Shown here piece after piece: positions 1,664-17,242 of a stretch of 20,202 nt of DNA (its first letter is position 1; the number at the start of each line of letters is the position of its first letter). Source of the stretch: a virus. The position numbers and the translations under genes are program-made. The stretch covers positions 1 through 20,202 of IMG/VR virus record IMGVR_UViG_3300031758_005443; one strand, 5' to 3'. The notes beneath the pieces were generated by a model, which did no database searches, had not been told where the DNA came from, and worked only from the letters and a program-made list of their open reading frames with translations.

Positions 1664-2392
1664 ATGAAGAAACTATTACTATTATTACTATTACCATTAA
1701 CATCTCTGGCGAATCCCATAGATGATAAATGTCCACAATTTACACCTTATGGTGCGCCAGTATCAAAGGCCACCAATGTCCAATATATGTGTAAAAAGAA
1801 TTACGCTCTACAATACAATTACAACACAAAAACAGCTGTATATGTATTAGAACATCTTACTAAAGAATCAATTACAGGCCCAGCAAAACGCAAAGACGAT
1901 TTTCGTCCTGATCCTGAAGTTCCTGTTCAACATCAAAGTCAATTAGCTGATTATGCTGGTAAACCATATGACCGTGGTCATTTAAGTCCTGGTGCTGACA
2001 ATACACAAAATGATGAGATTATGTCTGAATCATTCTTCTTGTCTAACATGATTCCACAGGTACCAAACAACAATCGTGGTATCTGGAAACAATTAGAAGC
2101 CAAGGTGCGTGATTATGTATTGAAAAACAATGATGTTTATGTAGTATCTGGACCAATCTATGAGAGAGGTTATGCGGTCATTGGTAACAATGTTGGTATT
2201 CCTACGAAAGTGTATAAAGTGATTGTTGATGTAAAGAATCAAAAATCAGCAGCCTACATATTTCCAAATACAGCCTTACCTGTTGCAGATTTAGAAAAAT
2301 ATAAATTATCCATAACAGAGGCTGAAAAGGTTATTAATATCAATTTCAACCCAAAACTTAACAATTCATTAGAGAGTAAAAACAATTGGTAA
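1664..2392 (+). CDS. DNA/RNA non-specific endonuclease (NUC1/His-Me finger family) with signal peptide
   Basis: A sugar-non-specific nuclease of 242 residues. The ATG at 1664 has AAGGAAA just upstream. The first 17 residues (MKK, seven leucines, then PLTSLA) form a clear Sec signal peptide with a likely cut after A17, so the protein is predicted to be periplasmic or secreted. The family signature DRGH is at 103-106 (catalytic H106). The motif SNMIPQ..NNNRGIW at about 127-141 aligns with the Serratia nuclease magnesium site (N119), giving N137 here. Cysteines C23 and C43 could form a disulfide in the periplasm. It lies between nrdB and erpA and overlaps the latter by 7 bases. The role is unproven: host nucleic-acid scavenging, degradation of competing DNA, or entry/exit are all possible. 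Confidence 0.9.
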
Positions 2393-2709
2393 CAATAGAA
2401 CAAGGCGCCGTTGATAAAATTAAAAGTTTATTAGCTGAAGAAGACAATCAAGACCTTAAATTAAGGTTATTTGTTTCTGGTGGCGGTTGCTCTGGTTTTC
2501 AATACGGTTTTACTTTTGATGAATCTCAAAATGAAGATGATTTTGTAGTAGAAAAAGATGGTGTCACTTTACTTGTAGATGCTATGAGTATGCAATACCT
2601 CAATGGTGCTACAATAGATTATAGTAAAACATTAATGGCTGAACAATTTGAAATTAAGAACCCAAATGCTACAAGTAAATGTGGTTGTGGTTCATCATTT
2701 TCAGCATAG
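2386..2709 (+). CDS. erpA: A-type iron-sulfur cluster carrier, ErpA-like
   Basis: A 107-residue Fe-S carrier that takes clusters from a scaffold such as IscU and passes them to apo-enzymes. The three cluster cysteines are present: C35 in [11 protein letters not shown] and C99/C101 in KCGCGSSFS. The wording of both motifs matches E. coli ErpA more closely than IscA. Translation appears to start at TTG 2386, seven bases inside the preceding nuclease gene, with a purine-rich GAGAG at 2372-2376 as likely ribosome site; no in-frame ATG covers the conserved N-terminus. iscU follows after 9 bases, making a carrier plus scaffold pair. No cysteine desulfurase is visible, so sulfur must come from the host. 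Confidence 0.93.
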
Positions 2710-2718
2710 GAGAACTTT

Positions 2719-3102
2719 ATGGCATACTCTGATAAAGTATTAGACCATTATGAAAACCCAAGAAATGTTGGGTCTTTTCCTAAAGACGAACCAGATGTTG
2801 GCACAGGAATGGTTGGTGCGCCGGCCTGTGGTGATGTAATGAAATTACAAATCAAAGTAGAAGATGGTATCATTACGGACGCTAAATTTAAGACCTATGG
2901 TTGTGGTTCAGCCATAGCTTCATCAAGTTTAGTGACAGAGATACTCAAAGGTAAAACACTACAAGAAGCTTCTACTATCAAAAATTCAGCCATCGCTGAA
3001 GAACTCGCACTACCACCAGTGAAGATACATTGTTCAGTCCTTGCTGAAGATGCTATCAAAGCTGCAATCAAAGATTACGAACTTAAATGTTCGTGTAAAT
3101 AA
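2719..3102 (+). CDS. iscU: Iron-sulfur cluster assembly scaffold IscU
   Basis: A 127-residue full-length scaffold on which Fe-S clusters are built. The cluster ligands C37 (GAPACGD, with D39), C62 (TYGCGSAIASSS) and C105 (KIHCS) are intact. The LPPVK motif at 98-102, recognised by the HscA chaperone, is also kept. From memory of the E. coli protein, nearly every motif matches, which suggests a recent bacterial origin or strong constraint. The ribosome site AGGAGA at 2708-2713 is good. The C-terminal tail has an additional CSC, which the E. coli protein lacks. Retaining LPPVK suggests that the phage protein works with host IscS/HscBA rather than a SUF system. Confidence 0.96.
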   Translation: MAYSDKVLDHYENPRNVGSFPKDEPDVGTGMVGAPACGDVMKLQIKVEDGIITDAKFKTYGCGSAIASSSLVTEILKGKTLQEASTIKNSAIAEELALPPVKIHCSVLAEDAIKAAIKDYELKCSCK

Positions 3103-3118
3103 TTCAACAGGATAACCT

Positions 3119-3289
3119 ATGGCAAACAAACATCACTCGTGTGAATGTGGGTCTAAATATGTAATACAGTATGACAAAGAGATATGCGAAACCGATCCTC
3201 TCTACTGTCCATTCTGTGGTGAATACATGATAGACGAAATAGATGAAATTAAAAAATCATTCAACGAGGAAGATGGTTACGAAGATTGA
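3119..3289 (+). CDS. Small zinc-ribbon protein, function unknown
   Basis: A 56-residue ORF starting at ATG 3119, with CAGGAT at 3108-3113 as ribosome site. It carries five cysteines: CEC at 8-10, C23, and CPFC at 30-33, followed by an acidic tail (roughly residues 39-56). The CxC plus CPFCGE pattern is typical of a small rubredoxin-like zinc ribbon. It directly follows iscU, so an iron rather than zinc site cannot be excluded, but nothing in the sequence requires it. The stop overlaps the next gene's TTG start (TTGA). Confidence 0.75.
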   Translation: MANKHHSCECGSKYVIQYDKEICETDPLYCPFCGEYMIDEIDEIKKSFNEEDGYED

Positions 3290-3738
3290 AATGGACATAT
3301 AATCATAAAGAGTTTACGGGTGAAGAAATTGGTGAGTATTTTGGTATGGTGTATCTTATCACCAATACAAGAACAGGCCGTAAATATGTGGGTAAGAAGT
3401 TTTTTACTAAAGCTGCAAGACGCCAAGTAAAAGGTAAATCAAAAAAAGTCAGAGTTGCTTCCGATTGGGAAAAATACTTCGGTTCTAATAAAGTTATACA
3501 AGAAGAAGTAAAGGCACTTGGAGAAGATGTGTTTAAGAGAGAGATACTTCACCTCTGTAAATCACGCTCAGAGTGTGCGTATTGGGAGACCTGGGAGATA
3601 TTTAATCGGGACGCTTTGAGAACTGACGATTACTATAATGATTGGGTTTCATGTCGGATTAGGAAAGCTCATTTATTATCAAACCGGACACCAGCTATGT
3701 ATAAAGCAAAAATGCGCCGGCCGACACACTTCCGCTAA
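3286..3738 (+). CDS. GIY-YIG family endonuclease-like protein
   Basis: 150 residues. The N-terminal module at 20-40 (GMVYLITNTRTGRKYVGKK) is a GIY-YIG variant, with MVY at 21-23 and YVG at 34-36. Candidate catalytic residues downstream are R45/R46, an acidic cluster at E97/E101/E104 and N118. The segment SDWEKYFGSNK...REILHLCKS.SECAYWE is the pattern of single-domain phage Seg-like endonucleases; no separate DNA-binding domain is evident, although the C-terminus is basic. The start is TTG 3286 overlapping the previous stop; no in-frame ATG precedes the motif. It could be a homing endonuclease or a phage DNA-processing nuclease. Confidence 0.75.
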   Translation: MKWTYNHKEFTGEEIGEYFGMVYLITNTRTGRKYVGKKFFTKAARRQVKGKSKKVRVASDWEKYFGSNKVIQEEVKALGEDVFKREILHLCKSRSECAYWETWEIFNRDALRTDDYYNDWVSCRIRKAHLLSNRTPAMYKAKMRRPTHFR

Positions 3739-4060: not shown

Positions 4061-4612
4061 ATGGCAATCAGTCAAATAACAGCTGCCTCAATCGCAGACG
4101 GAACAGTAGTTGCAGCCGATATTGCAGCTAACGCAGTCACCACAGTCAAAATAGCAGATTCAGCAGTTACCGCAGCTAAATTAGCGCCAGGTGCCGCTTT
4201 ATCAAACGGTCAACTATCAATCGTATCATCAAGTTTAGGTGTTGTTCCAGATTCACCAGCATCAGCAACACCATACAAGATTTTAGGTCAGATTGTTGGT
4301 GTAGCCAATACAGATTCTAATGTGTATGTGGTTCCTGCTTCAACCAATACAGTAGTGAATTTAATTACTGTTTGTAATGGTACACAAAACAATATTCTTA
4401 TTGATTTAGTAGCAAGACCTTCAAGTGAAGCATTAGCCACTAAACATTTTGTTCTTAAATCACTCAACATACCTGCAGCTGATACATTAGTATTGGATAC
4501 AGGTGTAACATTACCAACATCAGCAATTCTTTCAGCAAATGTAACAGGTGCCAATGCAACCTCTTCAGCTGCAGGTGTTGCTATTCACGCATATGGAGTT
4601 GAAATCAAATAA
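4061..4612 (+). CDS. Putative virion/tail fibre-associated structural protein
   Basis: 183 residues. The first 45 residues are repeats of the kind IADGTV/IAANAV/IADSAVTAAKL, common in trimeric phage fibre stalks and neck regions. Residues about 71-183 form a separate beta-rich module (ILGQ...NVYVVPAS... to HAYGVEIK) that is paralogous to the whole of the next gene product. A GAGAGA ribosome site lies at 4050-4055, and candidate late promoters lie at 4011 and 4022. It is translationally coupled (TAATG) to its paralogue. A structural role is inferred from repeat type and position before the adhesin genes; the exact virion location is unknown. Confidence 0.65.
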   Translation: MAISQITAASIADGTVVAADIAANAVTTVKIADSAVTAAKLAPGAALSNGQLSIVSSSLGVVPDSPASATPYKILGQIVGVANTDSNVYVVPASTNTVVNLITVCNGTQNNILIDLVARPSSEALATKHFVLKSLNIPAADTLVLDTGVTLPTSAILSANVTGANATSSAAGVAIHAYGVEIK

Positions 4613-4950
4613 TGGCTAACGCACTTAAAATTTTAGGACAATTAAATCCTACTGCAAATACTCAAGGTAATGTGTATGTGGTTCCAGCTTCAACAGCAGC
4701 AATTATTAATAACATTACTGTAGCAAATCAAACAGCAGCTAATGTATCCTATTCAATCATTGTGATGCCTTCTGGTGGTTTTTCAGCAACGGCAGCTAAC
4801 ACATACTTTGTGGTTCGTGGCGGTGTCGTACCTGCCTCTGATACTGCATTGTTAAGTTTAGGTCTCACATTACCATCTGGTGCAATCTTAGCTGCCAATT
4901 CAAATTCAGGTTCAGTTTCAATATCAGCATTTGGTGTAGAGATTAGCTAA
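4612..4950 (+). CDS. Putative virion protein, paralogue of the C-terminal module of the 4061 product
   Basis: 112 residues. It lines up end to end with residues about 71-183 of the previous protein: KILGQ near the start, then GNVYVVPAS, ITV.N, VPA.DT..L..G.TLP..AIL.AN, and the ending AFGVEIS versus AYGVEIK. It lacks the stalk-like repeat region. Coupled by one-base TAATG overlaps to both neighbours, so the three products are probably made in related amounts. Likely a small fibre/baseplate decoration or host-contact subunit (inference). Confidence 0.65.
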   Translation: MANALKILGQLNPTANTQGNVYVVPASTAAIINNITVANQTAANVSYSIIVMPSGGFSATAANTYFVVRGGVVPASDTALLSLGLTLPSGAILAANSNSGSVSISAFGVEIS

Positions 4951-5888
4951 TGGCTGAAATTAAGTATTTTAGTTCCGATAATAACGGGTCATTTGTTCGG
5001 CCGTTAAATTATAGTTTCCCAGCAGGATTAACCAGATTTTCAAATTCTGCTAATTATCTTGTTGCAGCTGGCGGTGGCGGCGGTGCTCAAAACGCATCGG
5101 GCGGTGGAGGTGCTGGTGGATTATTAATTTCTAGTGCAACCTTACAATTAGGAACTACTTATACTATTACTGTTGGAGCGGGAGGAGCTGCATCCGTTAC
5201 ACTAGCTGAAGGTGATAATGGTTCTAATTCTTCCATATCTGGCACAGATTTAGTTACTATTACTGCTATAGGTGGCGGCGGAGCAGGTTCATTAGGTTAT
5301 CCACCTGGCGGATGGGTTACTCCAAATGGAAGAGCTGGCGGTTCGGGCGGTGGCGGAGGTTCAGGATATGGTGGGTATAATGGCGGAACTGGAGGAGCAG
5401 GAACGGGCGGCCAAGGTAATAATGGAGGAACATCACCATTTAACGGAAGTGGATCAGTATCATCATTAGGTGGTTCAGGTGGTGGTGGTGCTGGAGCTGT
5501 TGGAAGTAACGGGTCAAGTGGAGTTGGTGGTGCCGGTGGTGCTGGTGCATCCTCTTCAATTTCAGGATCCTCTGTAACATATGCTGGTGGCGGTGGCGGA
5601 GCTAGTGGAGGAACAGGAGTTGCTGGCGCCGGAGGTTCTGGTGGTGGTGGTGCAGGTTCTGTATCAACTACTGCAACGGCTGGTACAGCTAACACGGGTG
5701 GCGGTGGCGGTGGCGGTGGTAACGGAGGAAGTCCAGCGGCTGGAGGTTCAGGTGTAGTTATTATCTCATATGCTGGATCACAACAATTTACAGGTGGAAC
5801 CGTAACATCATCAGGCGGTAACACTATACATACATTTACAGGATCTGGTTCGTTAATACCAATAGGACCTGGTTTTTCTATCAATTAA
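4950..5888 (+). CDS. Glycine-rich adhesin/tail-fibre-tip-like protein, paralogue 1
   Basis: 312 residues. The N-terminal cap (about 1-40: IKYFSSDNNGSFVRP.NYSFPAGL) is followed by YLVAAGGGGG and a core dominated by glycine runs separated by short conserved islands (TYTITVGAGG, SSISG..LVTITAIGGGG, SSISGSSVTYAGGGG, NTGGGGG, SGVVIISY). The end is TGGTVTSSGGNTIHTFTGSGS...FSIN. This is the pattern of glycine-rich phage adhesins; polyglycine-II helix bundles are known in T-even Gp38-type adhesins. It starts on the one-base overlap with the preceding gene. Probably recognises the host surface; the fold is inferred. Confidence 0.75.
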   Translation: MAEIKYFSSDNNGSFVRPLNYSFPAGLTRFSNSANYLVAAGGGGGAQNASGGGGAGGLLISSATLQLGTTYTITVGAGGAASVTLAEGDNGSNSSISGTDLVTITAIGGGGAGSLGYPPGGWVTPNGRAGGSGGGGGSGYGGYNGGTGGAGTGGQGNNGGTSPFNGSGSVSSLGGSGGGGAGAVGSNGSSGVGGAGGAGASSSISGSSVTYAGGGGGASGGTGVAGAGGSGGGGAGSVSTTATAGTANTGGGGGGGGNGGSPAAGGSGVVIISYAGSQQFTGGTVTSSGGNTIHTFTGSGSLIPIGPGFSIN

Positions 5889-5920
5889 ATAAAAGAAAAA
5901 ATTCATTGAGATATTCTTAA

Positions 5921-6856
5921 ATGGGAATCAAATACGCAGTTTCTAATCCAACAAACACTTTCGTAAGACCTAGCGGATATTCTTTTCCTACAGGATTAAG
6001 TGCAATTTTATCATCCAACACATCAACAGATTATCTTGTTGTAGCTGGTGGTGGAGCAGGTGGTGGTGGTTGGACTGGCGGCGGTGGCGGTGCTGGCGGT
6101 TATCTAACAGGAACAACACCACTAAGCGTTTCAACAGCATATACTGTGACTGTTGGTGGAGGAGGAAGTGGACCAGGAGGCAATGGTTCTAATTCATCAA
6201 TAAGTGGTACGGGATTATCTACTATTACATCTATTGGCGGTGGTGGTGGTATAACAGATAATTCAGGATCAAATGGAAATAACGGCGGATCTGGAGGTGG
6301 TGGCGGATATAATTCTGGTGCAGGCGGAACAGCTGTTTCGGGTCAAGGTAATAATGGTGGCACTGGTTCTGGATGGGATGGAGGAGCTCAAACAGTAACA
6401 GGCGGAGGCGGTGGTGGCGCTGGAGCTGCAGGTACAAATGGCGTATTTAGTAATGCTGGTGATGGTGGTGTAGGTTTAGCATCTTCTATTTCAGGTACTT
6501 CTACATACTACGCTGGAGGCGGAGGCGGCGGTGGAGCTGCTGGAACTCCAAATTCATCTCCTGGTGGTTTAGGTGGCGGCGGAGCAGGTGGAGTTGGATC
6601 AAGTGTTGCTGGAACTGCAGGAACTACTAACACCGGTGGAGGTGGAGGTGGTTATGGTAAAAATCCTGGAACAGGATCTTCAGGCGGTTCAGGTATTGTA
6701 ATTGTCCGTTATTCTGGTTCACAAACAGCCACTGGTGGATCATCAATTAGTCCTTCAGCTGCACCAGGTTATACTGTTCACACATTTACTGGACCAGGAA
6801 CATTTACAACAAATTCAAATTATGGACTGTCTATAACAGGATATTCAGTAAATTAA
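5921..6856 (+). CDS. Glycine-rich adhesin/tail-fibre-tip-like protein, paralogue 2
   Basis: 311 residues, with the same architecture as the 4950 product: IKYAVSNPTNTFVRPSGYSFPTGL cap region, YLVVAGGG, TVTVGGGG, SSISGTGLSTITSIGGGGG, STYYAGGGGGGG, NTGGGGGG, SGIVIVRYSGSQ and the ending VHTFTGPGTF...YSVN. Glycine loops differ in length and content from the sister proteins, while the cap and ending are conserved. It is separated by 32 bases from paralogue 1. That gap includes TTAAATAA at 5885-5892, a weak late-promoter-like box. Confidence 0.75.
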   Translation: MGIKYAVSNPTNTFVRPSGYSFPTGLSAILSSNTSTDYLVVAGGGAGGGGWTGGGGGAGGYLTGTTPLSVSTAYTVTVGGGGSGPGGNGSNSSISGTGLSTITSIGGGGGITDNSGSNGNNGGSGGGGGYNSGAGGTAVSGQGNNGGTGSGWDGGAQTVTGGGGGGAGAAGTNGVFSNAGDGGVGLASSISGTSTYYAGGGGGGGAAGTPNSSPGGLGGGGAGGVGSSVAGTAGTTNTGGGGGGYGKNPGTGSSGGSGIVIVRYSGSQTATGGSSISPSAAPGYTVHTFTGPGTFTTNSNYGLSITGYSVN

Positions 6857-6858
6857 AA

Positions 6859-7842
6859 ATGCCAAAAATAAAATATACAACAGTCGCAAGTAATAAATCT
6901 TTCACACGACCAACAGGTTACTCCTATCCAGCTGGATTAACTGCTAATGCACCTTCCACGATAAACTATCTAGTAGTTGGTGGCGGAGGTTCTGGTGGCG
7001 GATCTAATAATCCAGGAACCAGTTTTGTTGGTGCTGGAGGTGGAGGCGCTGGCGGTTTATTAACTGGTACTGCTACATTACAAGCAGGTATTACATATAC
7101 TGTTACGGTTGGAGCTGGTGCGCCTGCGCCATCATCGGGATATAACAACGGAACTAATGGATCAAATTCAGTATTAAGTGGAGGAGCTATATCTACTGTA
7201 ACAGCTCTTGGTGGCGGTTACGGCGGAGCAAATAATGGAGTTCCAGCCTCTAATGCAGGAGGATCGGGGGCTTCAGGTGGTGGCGGATCAGGTGGTGGTC
7301 CTGGATCTTCTGGAGGTTCTGGTACACCTGGACAAGGCAACTCTGGAGGAAACGGATTTGGCCCTGGTGGAGGTAATGCTGCTGGTGGTGGTGGTGGCGC
7401 AGGTGGAACTGGTAGTAATGGATCTACATCTCCAGGATTGCCTGGTGGCGCTGGTGGCGCTGGAACTGCTTCATCTATTTCTGGAAGTTCAGTTACTTAT
7501 GCTGGTGGTGGCGGTGGAGGTGCTGGAGGTCCAGCAGGGGGCGGTGCTGGAGGATCTAGTATTGGTGGTGCTGGCGGAGCTGCAAGTAATGGTAGTGCCG
7601 CAATTATAAACACAGGATCTGGTGGTGGAGGTGCATGTGGATATTCCGATTCACCAGCAGTGATTATACCATCTACTATTGTAGCCGGAGGCGCTGGGTC
7701 TTCAGGCGTGGTCATTGTATCTTATTCATCTCCTACAACTTTATTTACAGGTGGAACCGTAACAACATCTGGCGGTAATCAAATTCACACATTTACGGGT
7801 CCGGGTTCATTAGCTTCTCTTAATGCTTATTCAATTAATTAA
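6859..7842 (+). CDS. Glycine-rich adhesin/tail-fibre-tip-like protein, paralogue 3
   Basis: 327 residues, the longest of the three. Cap IKYTTVASNKSFTRPTGYSYPAGL (split here as IKYTTVASNKSF / TRPTGYSYPAGL), YLVVGGGGSGGG, TYTVTVGAG, SSISGSSVTYAGGGGGG, SGVVIVSYSS, and the ending TGGTVTTSGGNQIHTFTGPGS...YSIN. The ending is closer to paralogue 1 than to paralogue 2. A single cysteine lies in the region about residue 258. It starts 2 bases after the stop of paralogue 2 with no clear ribosome site, so coupled translation is likely. Confidence 0.75.
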   Translation: MPKIKYTTVASNKSFTRPTGYSYPAGLTANAPSTINYLVVGGGGSGGGSNNPGTSFVGAGGGGAGGLLTGTATLQAGITYTVTVGAGAPAPSSGYNNGTNGSNSVLSGGAISTVTALGGGYGGANNGVPASNAGGSGASGGGGSGGGPGSSGGSGTPGQGNSGGNGFGPGGGNAAGGGGGAGGTGSNGSTSPGLPGGAGGAGTASSISGSSVTYAGGGGGGAGGPAGGGAGGSSIGGAGGAASNGSAAIINTGSGGGGACGYSDSPAVIIPSTIVAGGAGSSGVVIVSYSSPTTLFTGGTVTTSGGNQIHTFTGPGSLASLNAYSIN

Positions 7843-7895: not shown

Positions 7896-8279
7896 ATGGC
7901 ACATTTCGCTAAAGTAAATTCAGACAATATCGTAGTTGAAGTTCATGCAGTTGACAATTGGAACTGTGTTGACGGAGAAGGTAACGAATCAGAAGCAGCC
8001 GGCCGTGCATGGCAAGAAAGCGTATTCGGCGTTCAAGAAGGCATTCGTTGGATTCAAACATCATATAATCACAATATTCGTAAAAACTATGCTGGTATCG
8101 GCATGACATATGACGAAGGTCGTGACGCATTTATTCACCCAAAACCATATCCAAGTTGGGTATTAAATGAAACAACTTGCCGTTGGGAAGCACCAATACC
8201 AATGCCAACGCCAGGTGAAGGTGAATTCTATAATTGGGACGAAGAAACAACATCTTGGGTATTAAACACAATAGAGTAA
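7896..8279 (+). CDS. Conserved marine/aquatic phage protein, possibly tail-fibre related
   Basis: 127 residues, with GGGAG at 7882-7886 and a perfect late promoter box upstream. The opening MAHFAKVNSDNIVVEVHAVDN and the segment WIQTSYNHNIRKNYAGIGMTYD, followed by FIHPKPYPSWVLNE..CRWEAP, are patterns I recognise from proteins widespread in cyanophages and pelagiphages, usually of unknown function near fibre genes. The tryptophan-rich C-terminal half (W.LNE..C.WEAP...YNWDEETTSWV) could be a carbohydrate or protein contact surface. A late virion-associated role is inferred from the promoter and the terminator that follows. Confidence 0.75.
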   Translation: MAHFAKVNSDNIVVEVHAVDNWNCVDGEGNESEAAGRAWQESVFGVQEGIRWIQTSYNHNIRKNYAGIGMTYDEGRDAFIHPKPYPSWVLNETTCRWEAPIPMPTPGEGEFYNWDEETTSWVLNTIE

Positions 8280-9826: not shown

Positions 9827-10486
9827 ATGATAAACATAAAACAAATGAAACCAGCAAGTAATATGATAACGATTGTTGAACCAGAAATCTCTGGTATTTT
9901 CCCAACACCGGTTTATGTTTCGCACATGGATAGACCATTTACACCTTCAGAAATGGAAATATTCCAAAATGCTGAAAAGAAAACTGTGTCAAATGCTGGC
10001 AACATTACAAGTGCCAATAATTATATTCTTAATGAGCCTGGTTTAGAAAATCTTCGTAATATTCTTACAGCACATGTAACAGAATTCGTTAAAAGAATTT
10101 ATGTACCAAAACATGAGATGGTGCCATATATTACACAATCATGGACAAATTATACTAAAGAAAAAGAATGGCATCATAGCCATGAACATCCAAATAGTTT
10201 TGTTTCTGGTGTATTATACATCAATGCAAATGATGAATATGACAAAATTACATTTCAGAAAAAAGGCTATCAACAAATTAAACCCGTTTCAAGTGAGTTT
10301 AATTGGTATAATTCAGAGTCGTGGTTCTATACTGTTAGAACGGGTATGATTATAATGTTTCCATCAAGTACCACACACATGGTTGAAAACAAAGGTGGCG
10401 ATAACACACGAATTTCATTGGCCTTTAATACTTTTTTCAAAGGCACCATGGGTGAAAACTCATCATTAACTGAATTAATTTTATAA
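9827..10486 (+). CDS. Putative 2OG-Fe(II) oxygenase, phage 2OG-FeII_Oxy_5-like (second of three)
   Basis: 219 residues. The core W..Y.KEKEWHHSHEHPNSFVSG (written in parts: KEKEWHH at 111-117, SHEHPNSFVSGVLYI at 118-132) is the pattern of the putative 2OG-Fe(II) oxygenase family PF13759, common in T4-like cyanophages. Metal ligands would come from the histidine cluster 116-121 and distal H184 (PSSTTHMVE), with R195 (NTRISLAFN) for 2OG. The N-terminal IFPTPVYV is also typical of the family. Substrate unknown. Starts at ATG 9845 or 9863 are also possible. Confidence 0.8.
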   Translation: MINIKQMKPASNMITIVEPEISGIFPTPVYVSHMDRPFTPSEMEIFQNAEKKTVSNAGNITSANNYILNEPGLENLRNILTAHVTEFVKRIYVPKHEMVPYITQSWTNYTKEKEWHHSHEHPNSFVSGVLYINANDEYDKITFQKKGYQQIKPVSSEFNWYNSESWFYTVRTGMIIMFPSSTTHMVENKGGDNTRISLAFNTFFKGTMGENSSLTELIL

Positions 10487-12773: not shown

Positions 12774-13348
12774 TGTTTATGTTTGATGTAGAAACTCTTG
12801 GTAAAGAATCTAATTCTGTCATTCTATCCATGGCCTGTATTCATTTTGATCCTGACAGTAAACCAACACCACAACAATTAAGAGATAATACTTTTTTCTG
12901 TAAGTTTGATGCTTCAGACCAAATCAAAAGGCTACATCGCACCGTTGGTCGCACCACTATGGATTGGTGGGCAAAACAATGTGATAATGTCAAGGCTAAA
13001 TCATTTAGGCCAAATGTTGCGATTGATGAACGGTTTGAAGACGGCTACGAAAGAATGAGGCGCTGGGCTAAAAGTAAAAATGAACCTGATTCTTATGTAT
13101 GGGCTCGTGGTAATTTAGACCAATTAGTCCTTGATTCTATGGAAGAACAATTACAAATAGAACCTATCTTTCCATTCAAAAGATGGCGAGATGTTCGTAC
13201 CGCAGTAGATTTTCTCACAGGCACCACCAATGGGTATTGTAAAGTGAATTATCCTGGTTTTGACCCTTATTTACATATTACAAAACACAACCCAATTGAT
13301 GACTGTGTGCTTGATGTCATGCAATTAATATATGGAGTAAAAGAATAA
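12773..13348 (+). CDS. dexA: DnaQ-fold 3'-5' exonuclease, T4 DexA-like
   Basis: 191 residues. The DEDDh catalytic set can be assigned: D5 and E7 (FDVETLG), D116 (ARGNLDQLVL), H172 and D177 (HNPIDDCVLD). The order of landmarks (TMDWWAKQ, RWRDVRTAVDFL, then HxxxxD) parallels T4 DexA, which is 227 residues, and the Rv2179c-like exoribonuclease family. DexA degrades single-stranded DNA 3' to 5'; an RNA substrate is possible for this family. TAATG overlaps link it to both neighbours. Confidence 0.85.
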   Translation: MFMFDVETLGKESNSVILSMACIHFDPDSKPTPQQLRDNTFFCKFDASDQIKRLHRTVGRTTMDWWAKQCDNVKAKSFRPNVAIDERFEDGYERMRRWAKSKNEPDSYVWARGNLDQLVLDSMEEQLQIEPIFPFKRWRDVRTAVDFLTGTTNGYCKVNYPGFDPYLHITKHNPIDDCVLDVMQLIYGVKE

Positions 13349-13591: not shown

Positions 13592-14136
13592 TACAAGTTT
13601 ATGACCATTTTTTAAGTAAAGAAGACGAAGATTTTATTGAAAATCATGTCACGAGTGGTTATTTTCCTTGGTATCTTAAAAATGAAACAGTTAGGCCTGA
13701 TAATCGGTTTGTGAGTGATACTAGGTTTGTAGATTTTCCTTGGCTATCACATGAAACGCATATTGATGGAAAAGAAAATTCATCTTACCTGGAGATACCA
13801 AATAGAATTATTGAAGTCCTCAATAGTAAATTTAACATCATATACAAAGAAATTAGGCAATCACGATTGAATTTAGTATTCAAAAGTAATGACGATAGAA
13901 AAAGTCCACCTCATTGTGATTTTTATGATGACAATATAGATACGATGATATATTATGTCAATGATTCGGATGGAAACACCATGTTTTATGCTGATGAAAA
14001 TGCTAATACGATATTGCAAGAAGTTGAACCAAAGAAAGGCCGCATAGTTATTTTTTCAAGTAAAACACTACATGCAGCCACTAGACCAAAAGAAAATCAT
14101 ACAAGAATAGTTATTAATTTTAACATGGTAAAATAA
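13588..14136 (+). CDS. 2OG-Fe(II) oxygenase, prolyl-hydroxylase-like (third of three)
   Basis: 182 residues. The iron triad is H109-x-D111 (PPHCDF) and H162 (SSKTLHAATRP), with R173 (HTRIVINFN) as the 2OG-binding residue. GNTMFYAD..., EPKKGRIVIFSSKTLH is the typical second half of the double-stranded beta-helix in 2OG-FeII_Oxy proteins. The start overlaps the stop of the small CxxC frame. Protein hydroxylation is the usual role of the family; the phage substrate is unknown. Confidence 0.85.
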   Translation: MIQVYDHFLSKEDEDFIENHVTSGYFPWYLKNETVRPDNRFVSDTRFVDFPWLSHETHIDGKENSSYLEIPNRIIEVLNSKFNIIYKEIRQSRLNLVFKSNDDRKSPPHCDFYDDNIDTMIYYVNDSDGNTMFYADENANTILQEVEPKKGRIVIFSSKTLHAATRPKENHTRIVINFNMVK

Positions 14137-16491: not shown

Positions 16492-16728
16492 ATGACCAAA
16501 CAATTAGACCTATTCAATAATGAGATAGAACTCCAACAGATAGTCATAGACCTACACAATATTGCTCGTAGGGTAGAGAATAATGGTAATCCAGATGGAA
16601 TAGGGTATAGTATTAGAAGTATCGCTGATAAACTCAATGAATATAGTAGAGTAAAGGCACTTAAATATAAGTTAAAAGAGTCCATAGAAGAATTCGGTGA
16701 GGTATATCAAGAGCTAAAAGATGAATAA
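16492..16728 (+). CDS. Small helical hypothetical protein
   Basis: 78 residues with a strong ribosome site GGAGGTG at 16481-16487 located inside the end of the phosphoesterase gene. The sequence is mostly charged helix (KLNEYSRVKALKYKLKES, EEFGEVYQELKDE), suggesting a coiled-coil or helical-bundle protein. Not recognised. Confidence 0.65.
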   Translation: MTKQLDLFNNEIELQQIVIDLHNIARRVENNGNPDGIGYSIRSIADKLNEYSRVKALKYKLKESIEEFGEVYQELKDE

Positions 16729-16807
16729 GTATATAATAGATATAATCATTATCGCCATATTAGTAATCTACCTAGGTGGACTAGCCCTATCCTTGATGGA
16801 TAAGTAG
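16721..16807 (+). CDS. 28-residue single-membrane-helix peptide
   Basis: The ATG at 16721 overlaps the end of the previous gene by 8 bases. Nearly the whole product is hydrophobic (IIDIIIIAILVIYLGGLALSL) between MNKY and MDK. Overlapping start and composition suggest a real micro-membrane protein; no ribosome site beyond AAAAGATG context, so coupled translation is assumed. Confidence 0.5.
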   Translation: MNKYIIDIIIIAILVIYLGGLALSLMDK

Positions 16808-16909
16808 GTAATCACCTCATGGGAGAGTATTACCATTGGCGGGCGAAATCCCTGCCAGCGGAAGCGCTAATAAAACTAGGTGGTAGTATTCTCCCATGAG
16901 GTAGTAACC
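16807..16909 (+). ncRNA. Strongly structured non-coding RNA candidate
   Basis: Arms 16814-16835 and 16881-16902 pair over 22 consecutive positions, with only two G-U wobbles and no mismatch. After a small internal loop, GGT (16807-16809) pairs with ACC (16907-16909). Enclosed are hairpin P2, TGGC+GGG (16837-16843) with CCC+GCCA (16850-16857, one bulged T) and loop CGAAAT, and hairpin P3, AGCG (16857-16860) with CGCT (16865-16868) and loop GAAG. A single-stranded AATAAAACTAGG follows. No ORF explains it. It sits between two genes, is not followed by a T run, and is not tRNA-like. Confidence 0.65.
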
Positions 16910-16945: not shown

Positions 16946-17242
16946 ATGCCAGGCGTCTATAAGCTAAAAAATTGTAAGTTTTGCAGTAAAGAACACCGTA
17001 AGAAAGGCCCCTACTGTGGCCAGTCGTGTGCAAGTAAAGATAAAGAGCCAACAGAGGCCATGCGAGAGGCCATGCGCCAAGTGGCTACAGAGTATAACCA
17101 AACACCTGAAGCGGCTGCGAAGCGCCGTCAGTTTGGTACATCACTGGCCACTATGAATGGCGATGACTTTGCTGTGGATATTCCGACCATACAAGACCTA
17201 GACGAGTTACCGCCTGGTTATGACCGTGGAGAGAATTGGTAG
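16946..17242 (+). CDS. Zinc-finger-type conserved phage protein
   Basis: 98 residues. The N-terminal YKLKNCKFCSKEHRKKGPYC (10-29 roughly) followed by GQSCASKD has the ligands C10, C13, H17, C24 and C28, a compact zinc-binding module seen in several aquatic phage proteins. The rest is acidic and soluble, ending GYDRGENW. It ends one base before the convergent minus-strand gene. Function unknown; a small nucleic-acid-binding role is plausible. Confidence 0.7.
   Translation: MPGVYKLKNCKFCSKEHRKKGPYCGQSCASKDKEPTEAMREAMRQVATEYNQTPEAAAKRRQFGTSLATMNGDDFAVDIPTIQDLDELPPGYDRGENW

Follow-up and report, generated by a model that had tools for sequence, protein, structure and literature searches.

A conserved RNA hairpin at a phage gene junction, with relatives in phage tRNA arrays and permuted tmRNA genes

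The window, i.e. the whole 20,202-nt stretch of viral DNA analyzed here (positions 1 to 20,202 of IMG/VR record IMGVR_UViG_3300031758_005443), carries a 103-nt element closed by a long inverted repeat in the gap between a 28-codon and a 98-aa ORF. What is this element, and what could it do between two protein genes? A preliminary description had taken it for a multi-branched RNA, in which a 22-bp stem with two G-U pairs closes two hairpins and a single-stranded tract, accounted for by no tRNA or terminator and perhaps a phage small RNA or a processing element; an Rfam search and compensatory changes in the arms of homologues were named as checks. We find that the element is almost certainly a real conserved RNA structure, and that it very probably belongs to a class of hairpins associated with phage tRNA and tmRNA genes.

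Fold and parts of the window element

The features of the locus are as follows.

16721–16807, + strand: 28-codon ORF upstream, shorter than the ORF search admits; its stop codon reaches the element's left edge (sequence reading).
16807–16816, + strand: left copy of a 10-bp direct repeat, GGTAATCACC, diverged from GGTAGTAACC (sequence reading).
16814–16835, + strand: 5' arm of the closing stem P1, 22 nt, including the class motif GUAUU (fold, inverted repeat, covariation).
16837–16857, + strand: inner hairpin P2, made of UGGC-GGG, the loop CGAAAU (16844–16849), CCC, a bulged U and GCCA.
16858–16867, + strand: additional small hairpin GCG-GAAG-CGC, seen only in the window and in two contigs with the same sequence there (L004, L005).
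16871–16879, + strand: conserved single strand UAAAACUAG (UAAAAMUAG in 16 of 16 sequences, partly by construction of the searches).
16881–16902, + strand: 3' arm of P1, starting with UGGUAGUAU and holding the conserved U-G pair (fold, inverted repeat, covariation).
16900–16909, + strand: right copy of the direct repeat, GGTAGTAACC (sequence reading, comparison with relatives).
16946–17242, + strand: downstream 98-aa ORF, with Cys-x2-Cys and Cys-x3-Cys by eye (ORF list).

The closing stem pairs 16814–16835 with 16881–16902 in 22 consecutive pairs, exactly two of them G-U, so that the stem first proposed is borne out by both sequence and fold; read as an inverted repeat, its arms are identical at 20 of 22 positions (E 7.6e-4, for a single record of 20 kb). 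The predicted fold of the 103-nt stretch has an energy of −56.6 kcal/mol vs −26.3 (sd 3.5) in 200 dinucleotide shuffles (z −8.7), none of which reaches equal stability, and the opposite strand has a less stable fold (−45.0, z −6.1). Within P1, the inner hairpin P2 forms 6–7 pairs with a bulge, and the single strand reaches 16880. The outer ends of the direct repeat coincide with the ends given for the element, 16807 and 16909, and the first base of its left copy is the last base of the upstream stop codon. Both inner hairpins and the single strand are present in the window, as described beforehand, but the second hairpin is absent in L006, L007, L008 and twelve relatives from elsewhere and is therefore not part of the conserved fold. 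A 3-bp AGU-UAAA-ACU hairpin, seen in the J strand of some folds, was dropped, as by eye it is kept neither in L007 nor in L034.

The window contains no tRNA or tmRNA gene, and between 16600 and 17050 there is no terminator-like site (no T run) and no sigma-70-like site. Nowhere in the window does an Rfam family score up to its gathering threshold (Rfam 15, permuted tmRNA RF04321 included), and at E values up to 10 the region 16700–17000 matches just two microRNA precursors, far below the cut-offs. The proposed Rfam search thus returned no family that fits the element, and the tRNA/tmRNA, Rfam and terminator searches agree with the earlier view that no tRNA or terminator accounts for it. Single long hairpins do occur in phage genomes, but a chance fold or an ordinary terminator has next to no probability here: both readings were rejected on the z-score of −8.7, the missing T run and the covariation among homologues.

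Elsewhere in the window, three side observations concern its protein genes. Adjacent ORFs at 2386–3102 resemble iron-sulphur cluster assembly proteins (IscA-like by eye, NifU-like by PHROGs), an ORF at 3286–3738 has a GIY-YIG-like motif by eye and is a possible homing endonuclease, and three consecutive glycine-rich ORFs at 4950–7842 appear to be diverged duplicates, perhaps of tail-fibre proteins.

Relatives of the core and covariation

The window fits the signature of what we call core A, a hairpin RGG-C(G/A)AAA(G)U-C(C/U)Y with the strand UAAAAMUAG. A scan with the 19-base inner hairpin found seven loci, five from the window group plus L034 and L035, where core A is the intervening segment of a permuted tmRNA; in a phage permuted tmRNA, the intervening segment carries all 19 of these P2 bases unchanged. 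Relaxed scans found core A in the tmRNA intervening segments of L048, L120, L352 and L353, upstream of a permuted tmRNA in L044/L049/L082, and in the tRNA arrays of L088/L203/L204, L135/L183, L139, L179/L202, L197 and L201. In one of these scans, 11 of 55 stretches are true copies, some already known, and the others were judged by eye to be chance; another gave at least 119 stretches ranked by stem pairing, of which the best 45 were inspected, and members may be missed; in the last, 17 of 20 stretches are core-A copies, while L350, L351 and L354 have no hairpin and look like chance. Altogether there are 16 distinct core-A sequences, a lower bound: the window, L006–L008 at the same locus and twelve elsewhere. 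Five are tmRNA intervening segments (Rfam RF04321), one lies upstream of a permuted tmRNA, six lie in tRNA arrays and four at this locus, the array or tmRNA context holding for 12 of the 16 and for none of these four.

Note that the search patterns were built from known members, and only positions left open in them count as evidence of conservation. The strand UAAAAMUAG was mostly demanded by the patterns and by the segmentation script; the 19-base hairpin scan, which did not require it, still recovered it in L034/L035.

P2 is the most conserved part of core A and covaries across the 16 sequences. In a hand segmentation of all 16, pairing holds in 282 of 288 cells (1000 shuffles give no more than 260), and both sides change in 10 of 18 pairs. 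In alignment A3, made of eight tRNA/tmRNA members, 94.8% of cells pair, both sides change in 8 of 24 pairs (matched by 4 of 500 shuffles) and the covariation score lies above all 500 shuffles; one of the five covariation measures, the count of further pair types, is not above shuffles (236 of 500). The compensatory changes looked for in the arms of homologues are therefore present, and they uphold pairing at the RNA level, for which the two wobbles alone were a weak argument. One U-G position is preserved in 13 of the 16 core relatives and, among the matches listed, in 124 of 134 places of the wider class described below.

A covariance model, R1, was trained solely on the eight tRNA/tmRNA-associated members, with no window-group sequence. 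It scores the window at 30.3 bits and the sister copies L006–L008 at 40.7–42.3 bits, L034 reaching 35.1 and L044 78.2 bits; the same stem on the reverse strand of L007 obtains just 17.4 bits. Hairpins with other cores score as high (L014, 32.0 bits in the same search as the window; up to 34.7 elsewhere), so the R1 score alone places the window copy in the class and does not identify core A. Its assignment to core A comes from the core sequence, with L034 as a bridge: L007 aligns with the L034 tmRNA segment over ~60 bases with a score of 83 (at most 32 in 1000 shuffles), L034 with L120 at 54 (shuffles at most 27) and L007 with L120 at 37 (shuffles at most 33), where the shuffles are approximate dinucleotide-preserving swaps. 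Compared with L120 alone, the window gives a short alignment with a score of 26. The inner end of the window stem, GUAUU / AGUAU, fits the class type YRYAUU / AGURYR with its U-G pair.

The kinship with permuted tmRNA (RF04321/RF01850) is partial. Five core-A sequences are the intervening segment or lie within it, near the acceptor stem and after the CCA end; unlike these, the window copy has no surrounding tmRNA and the tRNA-array copies lie outside tmRNA, and the Rfam alignment shows the segment as an unpaired insert. PMC9004378 reports, in its available text, that most phage two-piece tmRNAs are marine or aquatic. A tRNA-array stretch with a core-A copy gave only weak Rfam matches to microRNAs, lying on a neighboring hairpin. 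The initial suggestion of a phage small RNA or processing element probably holds, given the RNA-level structure, but the kinship with tRNA and tmRNA genes had gone unnoticed.

Two regions seen by eye are recorded separately. The intervening segment of the permuted tmRNA at L183 228–413 seems to hold a small ORF and no structured core. At L203, about 8160–8270, beside a class hairpin, a core carries a T-arm-like GGTTCGAATC before a D-arm-like piece and resembles a permuted or degenerate tRNA.

The window stretch, the L048 and L034 tmRNA regions, a core-A sequence and one class hairpin served as queries against 50,697 phage records, and none of these similarity searches recovered the element; short matches to the tmRNA-region queries came from Pelagibacter phage Mosig and Acinetobacter phage BUCT628, and neither matched region fits R1. 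One pattern scan of cellular genome contigs gave 0 matches. Among the titles and abstract openings listed by searches of an open-licence library, none describes such RNAs, and a family of small folded RNAs in phage tRNA arrays and split tmRNA genes is apparently undescribed.

Linker hairpins of phage tRNA arrays

Reading the arrays, we observed many linkers with the same closing stem and differing cores. A pattern scan for one common stem type found at least 120 stretches of viral contigs, some of them from one contig, and tRNA genes are present in 117 of 120 class loci among the matches listed. These listed matches contain 134 class places; 10 that read on both strands were set aside, leaving 124 for the counts of strand, distance and clusters. 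A same-strand tRNA is found in the locus for 121 of these 124 listed places, the other 3 being without any, and the tRNA counts around them amount to 1593 on the strand of the element and 0 on the opposite one, each tRNA being recounted for every place in its locus. In 36 of 102 listed places, the tRNA upstream, counted with its CCA, has its last base on the first base of the stem (35) or immediately ahead of it (1); on the other side, the following tRNA begins at most 2 bases from the stem in 17 of 112. Within 15 bases, 69 of the 124 listed places abut a tRNA on at least one side (26 on both), and 55 have no abutting tRNA visible to ARAGORN. Opposite G at one stem position, the class pattern permits U or C and excludes A-U; among the matches listed, all 124 places have U there, and the 10 set aside for reading on both strands have C.

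By single linkage at 34% edit distance, a rough threshold on which the cluster count depends, the 124 cores of the matches listed form about 51 clusters, of which the largest has 22 members. Inner helices are present in the consensus folds of the six largest clusters, the second largest showing clear compensatory changes, and some cores recur in different contigs. In L287, two different tRNAs of the same array are each followed by a near-identical linker core (13257–13330 and 14006–14079), a repetition that we take as a sign of cassette duplication or transfer.

Other structures in these arrays were noted by the way. On the reverse complement of L229, apparent whole tRNAs lie by eye within long hairpins (4130–4231, 6916–7019 and 9959–10057), their flanks lengthening the acceptor stem, so that every tRNA seems to come with a processing stem of its own. 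Hairpins of a second, distinct family, built as GGAT...CAGCAAAT or CAGCAATA...ATCCTGTT, also lie between tRNAs in L203 (2084–2175, 8368–8443) and L202 (3790–3861, 4386–4460, 6104–6183), and an inter-tRNA stretch of ~190–210 bases with CAAGTATCAACTATTACTACGTACCTCTAT is common to these two different arrays (L203 6446–6638, L202 5257–5464).

Could the core be catalytic? A self-cleaving ribozyme, in which core A would cut its own transcript and free tRNA and tmRNA ends, is in keeping with the compact fold and with conserved unpaired bases (the C-G/A-AAA loop and the UAAAAMUAG strand) located where cuts are needed. We nevertheless regard it as quite improbable: Rfam ribozymes match neither the window element (E up to 10) nor the L088 copy (E up to 5), the many different cores at the same position indicate a class without a common catalytic core, and L019 retains the hairpin only.

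Alternatively, the constant stem could be a carrier for varied cores acting as decoys or inhibitors of host defence (tRNA-cutting effectors, RNA-sensing systems), placed in tRNA arrays because these are counter-defence loci; phage tRNAs as counter-defence are the subject of published work, as far as the available text of PMC11555353 and PMC13096335 goes. Diverse cargo of this kind would be in line with the ~51 core clusters in 124 listed places of one stem type and with cores that recur from contig to contig, clear compensatory changes being seen in at least one. We consider this unlikely, though less so than a ribozyme: no target is known, core A is strongly conserved across very different phages rather than diversifying, and the flush placement at tRNA ends points to processing.

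Several known systems share some of these traits. RNase III-type intercistronic processing hairpins exist in phages such as T7 and are likewise long double helices between genes of a phage operon, whereas the present stems bear conserved cores. The PeSL cassettes of T4-type phages are small intergenic stem-loops, similarly found, by description, at junctions with exchanged neighbor genes; the window element has no sigma-70-like promoter. Like rnaC/rnaD of phage T4 (species 1 and 2), annotated as small stable RNAs in a phage tRNA cluster, class members lie among tRNAs; rnaC/rnaD were rejected as relatives, since they do not match R1 and their predicted folds differ. GOLLD and ROOL are phage-encoded, often near tRNA islands and of unknown function according to the accessible text of PMC12286853, which also gives many GOLLD members as >800 nt, vs ~60–115 nt for the class hairpins; the present element has no Rfam match to either.

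Presence, absence and possible role at the junction

The 98-aa ORF has no PHROGs match and 12 related loci in viral contigs, where it occurs with and without the element upstream. The element is present in L004–L008, with one copy in each of these records, which are possibly fragments, and missing from L009, L010, L011 and L012, where a single GGTAGTAACC copy is left; L013–L015 are diverged upstream of the ORF, and L019 has a bare hairpin with no core. In L007 and L008, two exact copies of the direct repeat, with starts 83 bases apart, enclose the element, and L006 has one exact copy, the left one being diverged as in the window. From the right repeat into the gene, L011, without the element, agrees with L007 at 228 of 246 bases. 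The genes upstream vary among loci by eye, and the junction AGTAGGTAGTAACC is kept in most. Judging by these sequences, the element was gained or lost precisely, at a junction where neighbors get exchanged. It is dispensable: the close relative L011 has the same gene downstream but not the element, and L019 retains no more than a bare hairpin.

A MITE-like mobile palindromic DNA, the inverted repeat being a transposition end and the RNA fold incidental, would account for presence and absence at one site with a 10-bp direct repeat (two copies in L007/L008, one in L009–L012), for the 22-bp terminal inverted repeat flanked by this direct repeat in the window, and for the recurrence of one core at several sites and of several cores within a shared stem. 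A precise deletion between repeats could have left the repeat just as well, however, and the compensatory core changes with the preferred U-G pair are signs at the RNA level; orientation follows the tRNAs in the 121 listed places where it can be judged, and the window arms share just the inner few bases with those of tRNA-array members. Mobile DNA is therefore improbable in our judgment. A riboswitch-like leader of the 98-aa gene would fit the position of all four window-group sequences, ~40 bases before this gene, with upstream genes that differ by eye. It is very unlikely given that the close relative L011 has the gene without the element and that the other twelve core-A sequences are in tRNA or tmRNA contexts.

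Among the 13 related records, possibly fragments, two have tRNAs and one a permuted tmRNA. The 162-kb record L229 encodes a protein 68% identical to the 98-aa protein of the window over 82 residues; it also carries a permuted tmRNA and 23 tRNAs, with class hairpins in the region of the tRNAs and, by eye, one class hairpin between protein genes, which means that the setting of the window copy is not unique.

The reading that we favor, with about even confidence, is a transcribed linker or processing hairpin of phage stable-RNA operons, relocated here into an mRNA. In the class, a long closing stem with a conserved U-G pair holds one of many interchangeable inner cores, and in other phages such hairpins lie between the CCA end of one tRNA and the next 5' end, or between the halves of a permuted tmRNA. 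Since in many places the stems begin and end at mature tRNA ends or continue the acceptor stem of the tmRNA halves, a linker cut from the precursor and leaving a small stable RNA is the simplest reading. We infer that the element is transcribed, its double helix marking the precursor junction for cutting or trimming; the cut would free the neighboring RNAs, the hairpin would persist as a small stable RNA, and the conserved core bases may bind a factor or fold tightly. The available text of PMC11915505 describes permuted tmRNA precursors as cleaved by tRNA processing enzymes. If the stem were all that counts, there would be no reason to expect a conserved core, and spacing alone does not explain the retention of both a long stem and a conserved core, for which a binding protein, a cargo function or catalysis may account.

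We hold the processing or linker role to be roughly evenly balanced for the class and less probable for the window copy. As no tRNA or tmRNA lies beside this copy, a role in releasing them cannot apply there directly; in the gap between the 28-codon and the 98-aa ORF, we would first take it for an intercistronic processing or stabilizing hairpin, but it may also be a stray, functionless at this place.

Phage tRNA arrays are now studied as counter-defence loci, and the stretches between phage tRNAs are, in our impression, usually taken as spacer. To our knowledge, no known system combines a constant frame with exchangeable cores. Tentatively, and with more doubt than for the linker reading, these elements may be modular RNA cassettes of uncultured phages, in which a near-constant U-G frame would take dozens of cores and be exchanged among tRNA, tmRNA and mRNA junctions, the cores being cargo (decoys, inhibitors, small ribozymes or sensors) delivered by tRNA processing. 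If so, the frame would exploit the tRNA processing pathway to be cut out, and several of the cores would be conserved as families of their own. Core A is found in tmRNA, in tRNA arrays and at an mRNA junction, which suggests a single RNA domain moving among these three settings; structured RNAs with a near-constant frame and ~51 core clusters in 124 places among the matches listed, often placed exactly at tRNA ends, would represent a novel type of phage RNA.
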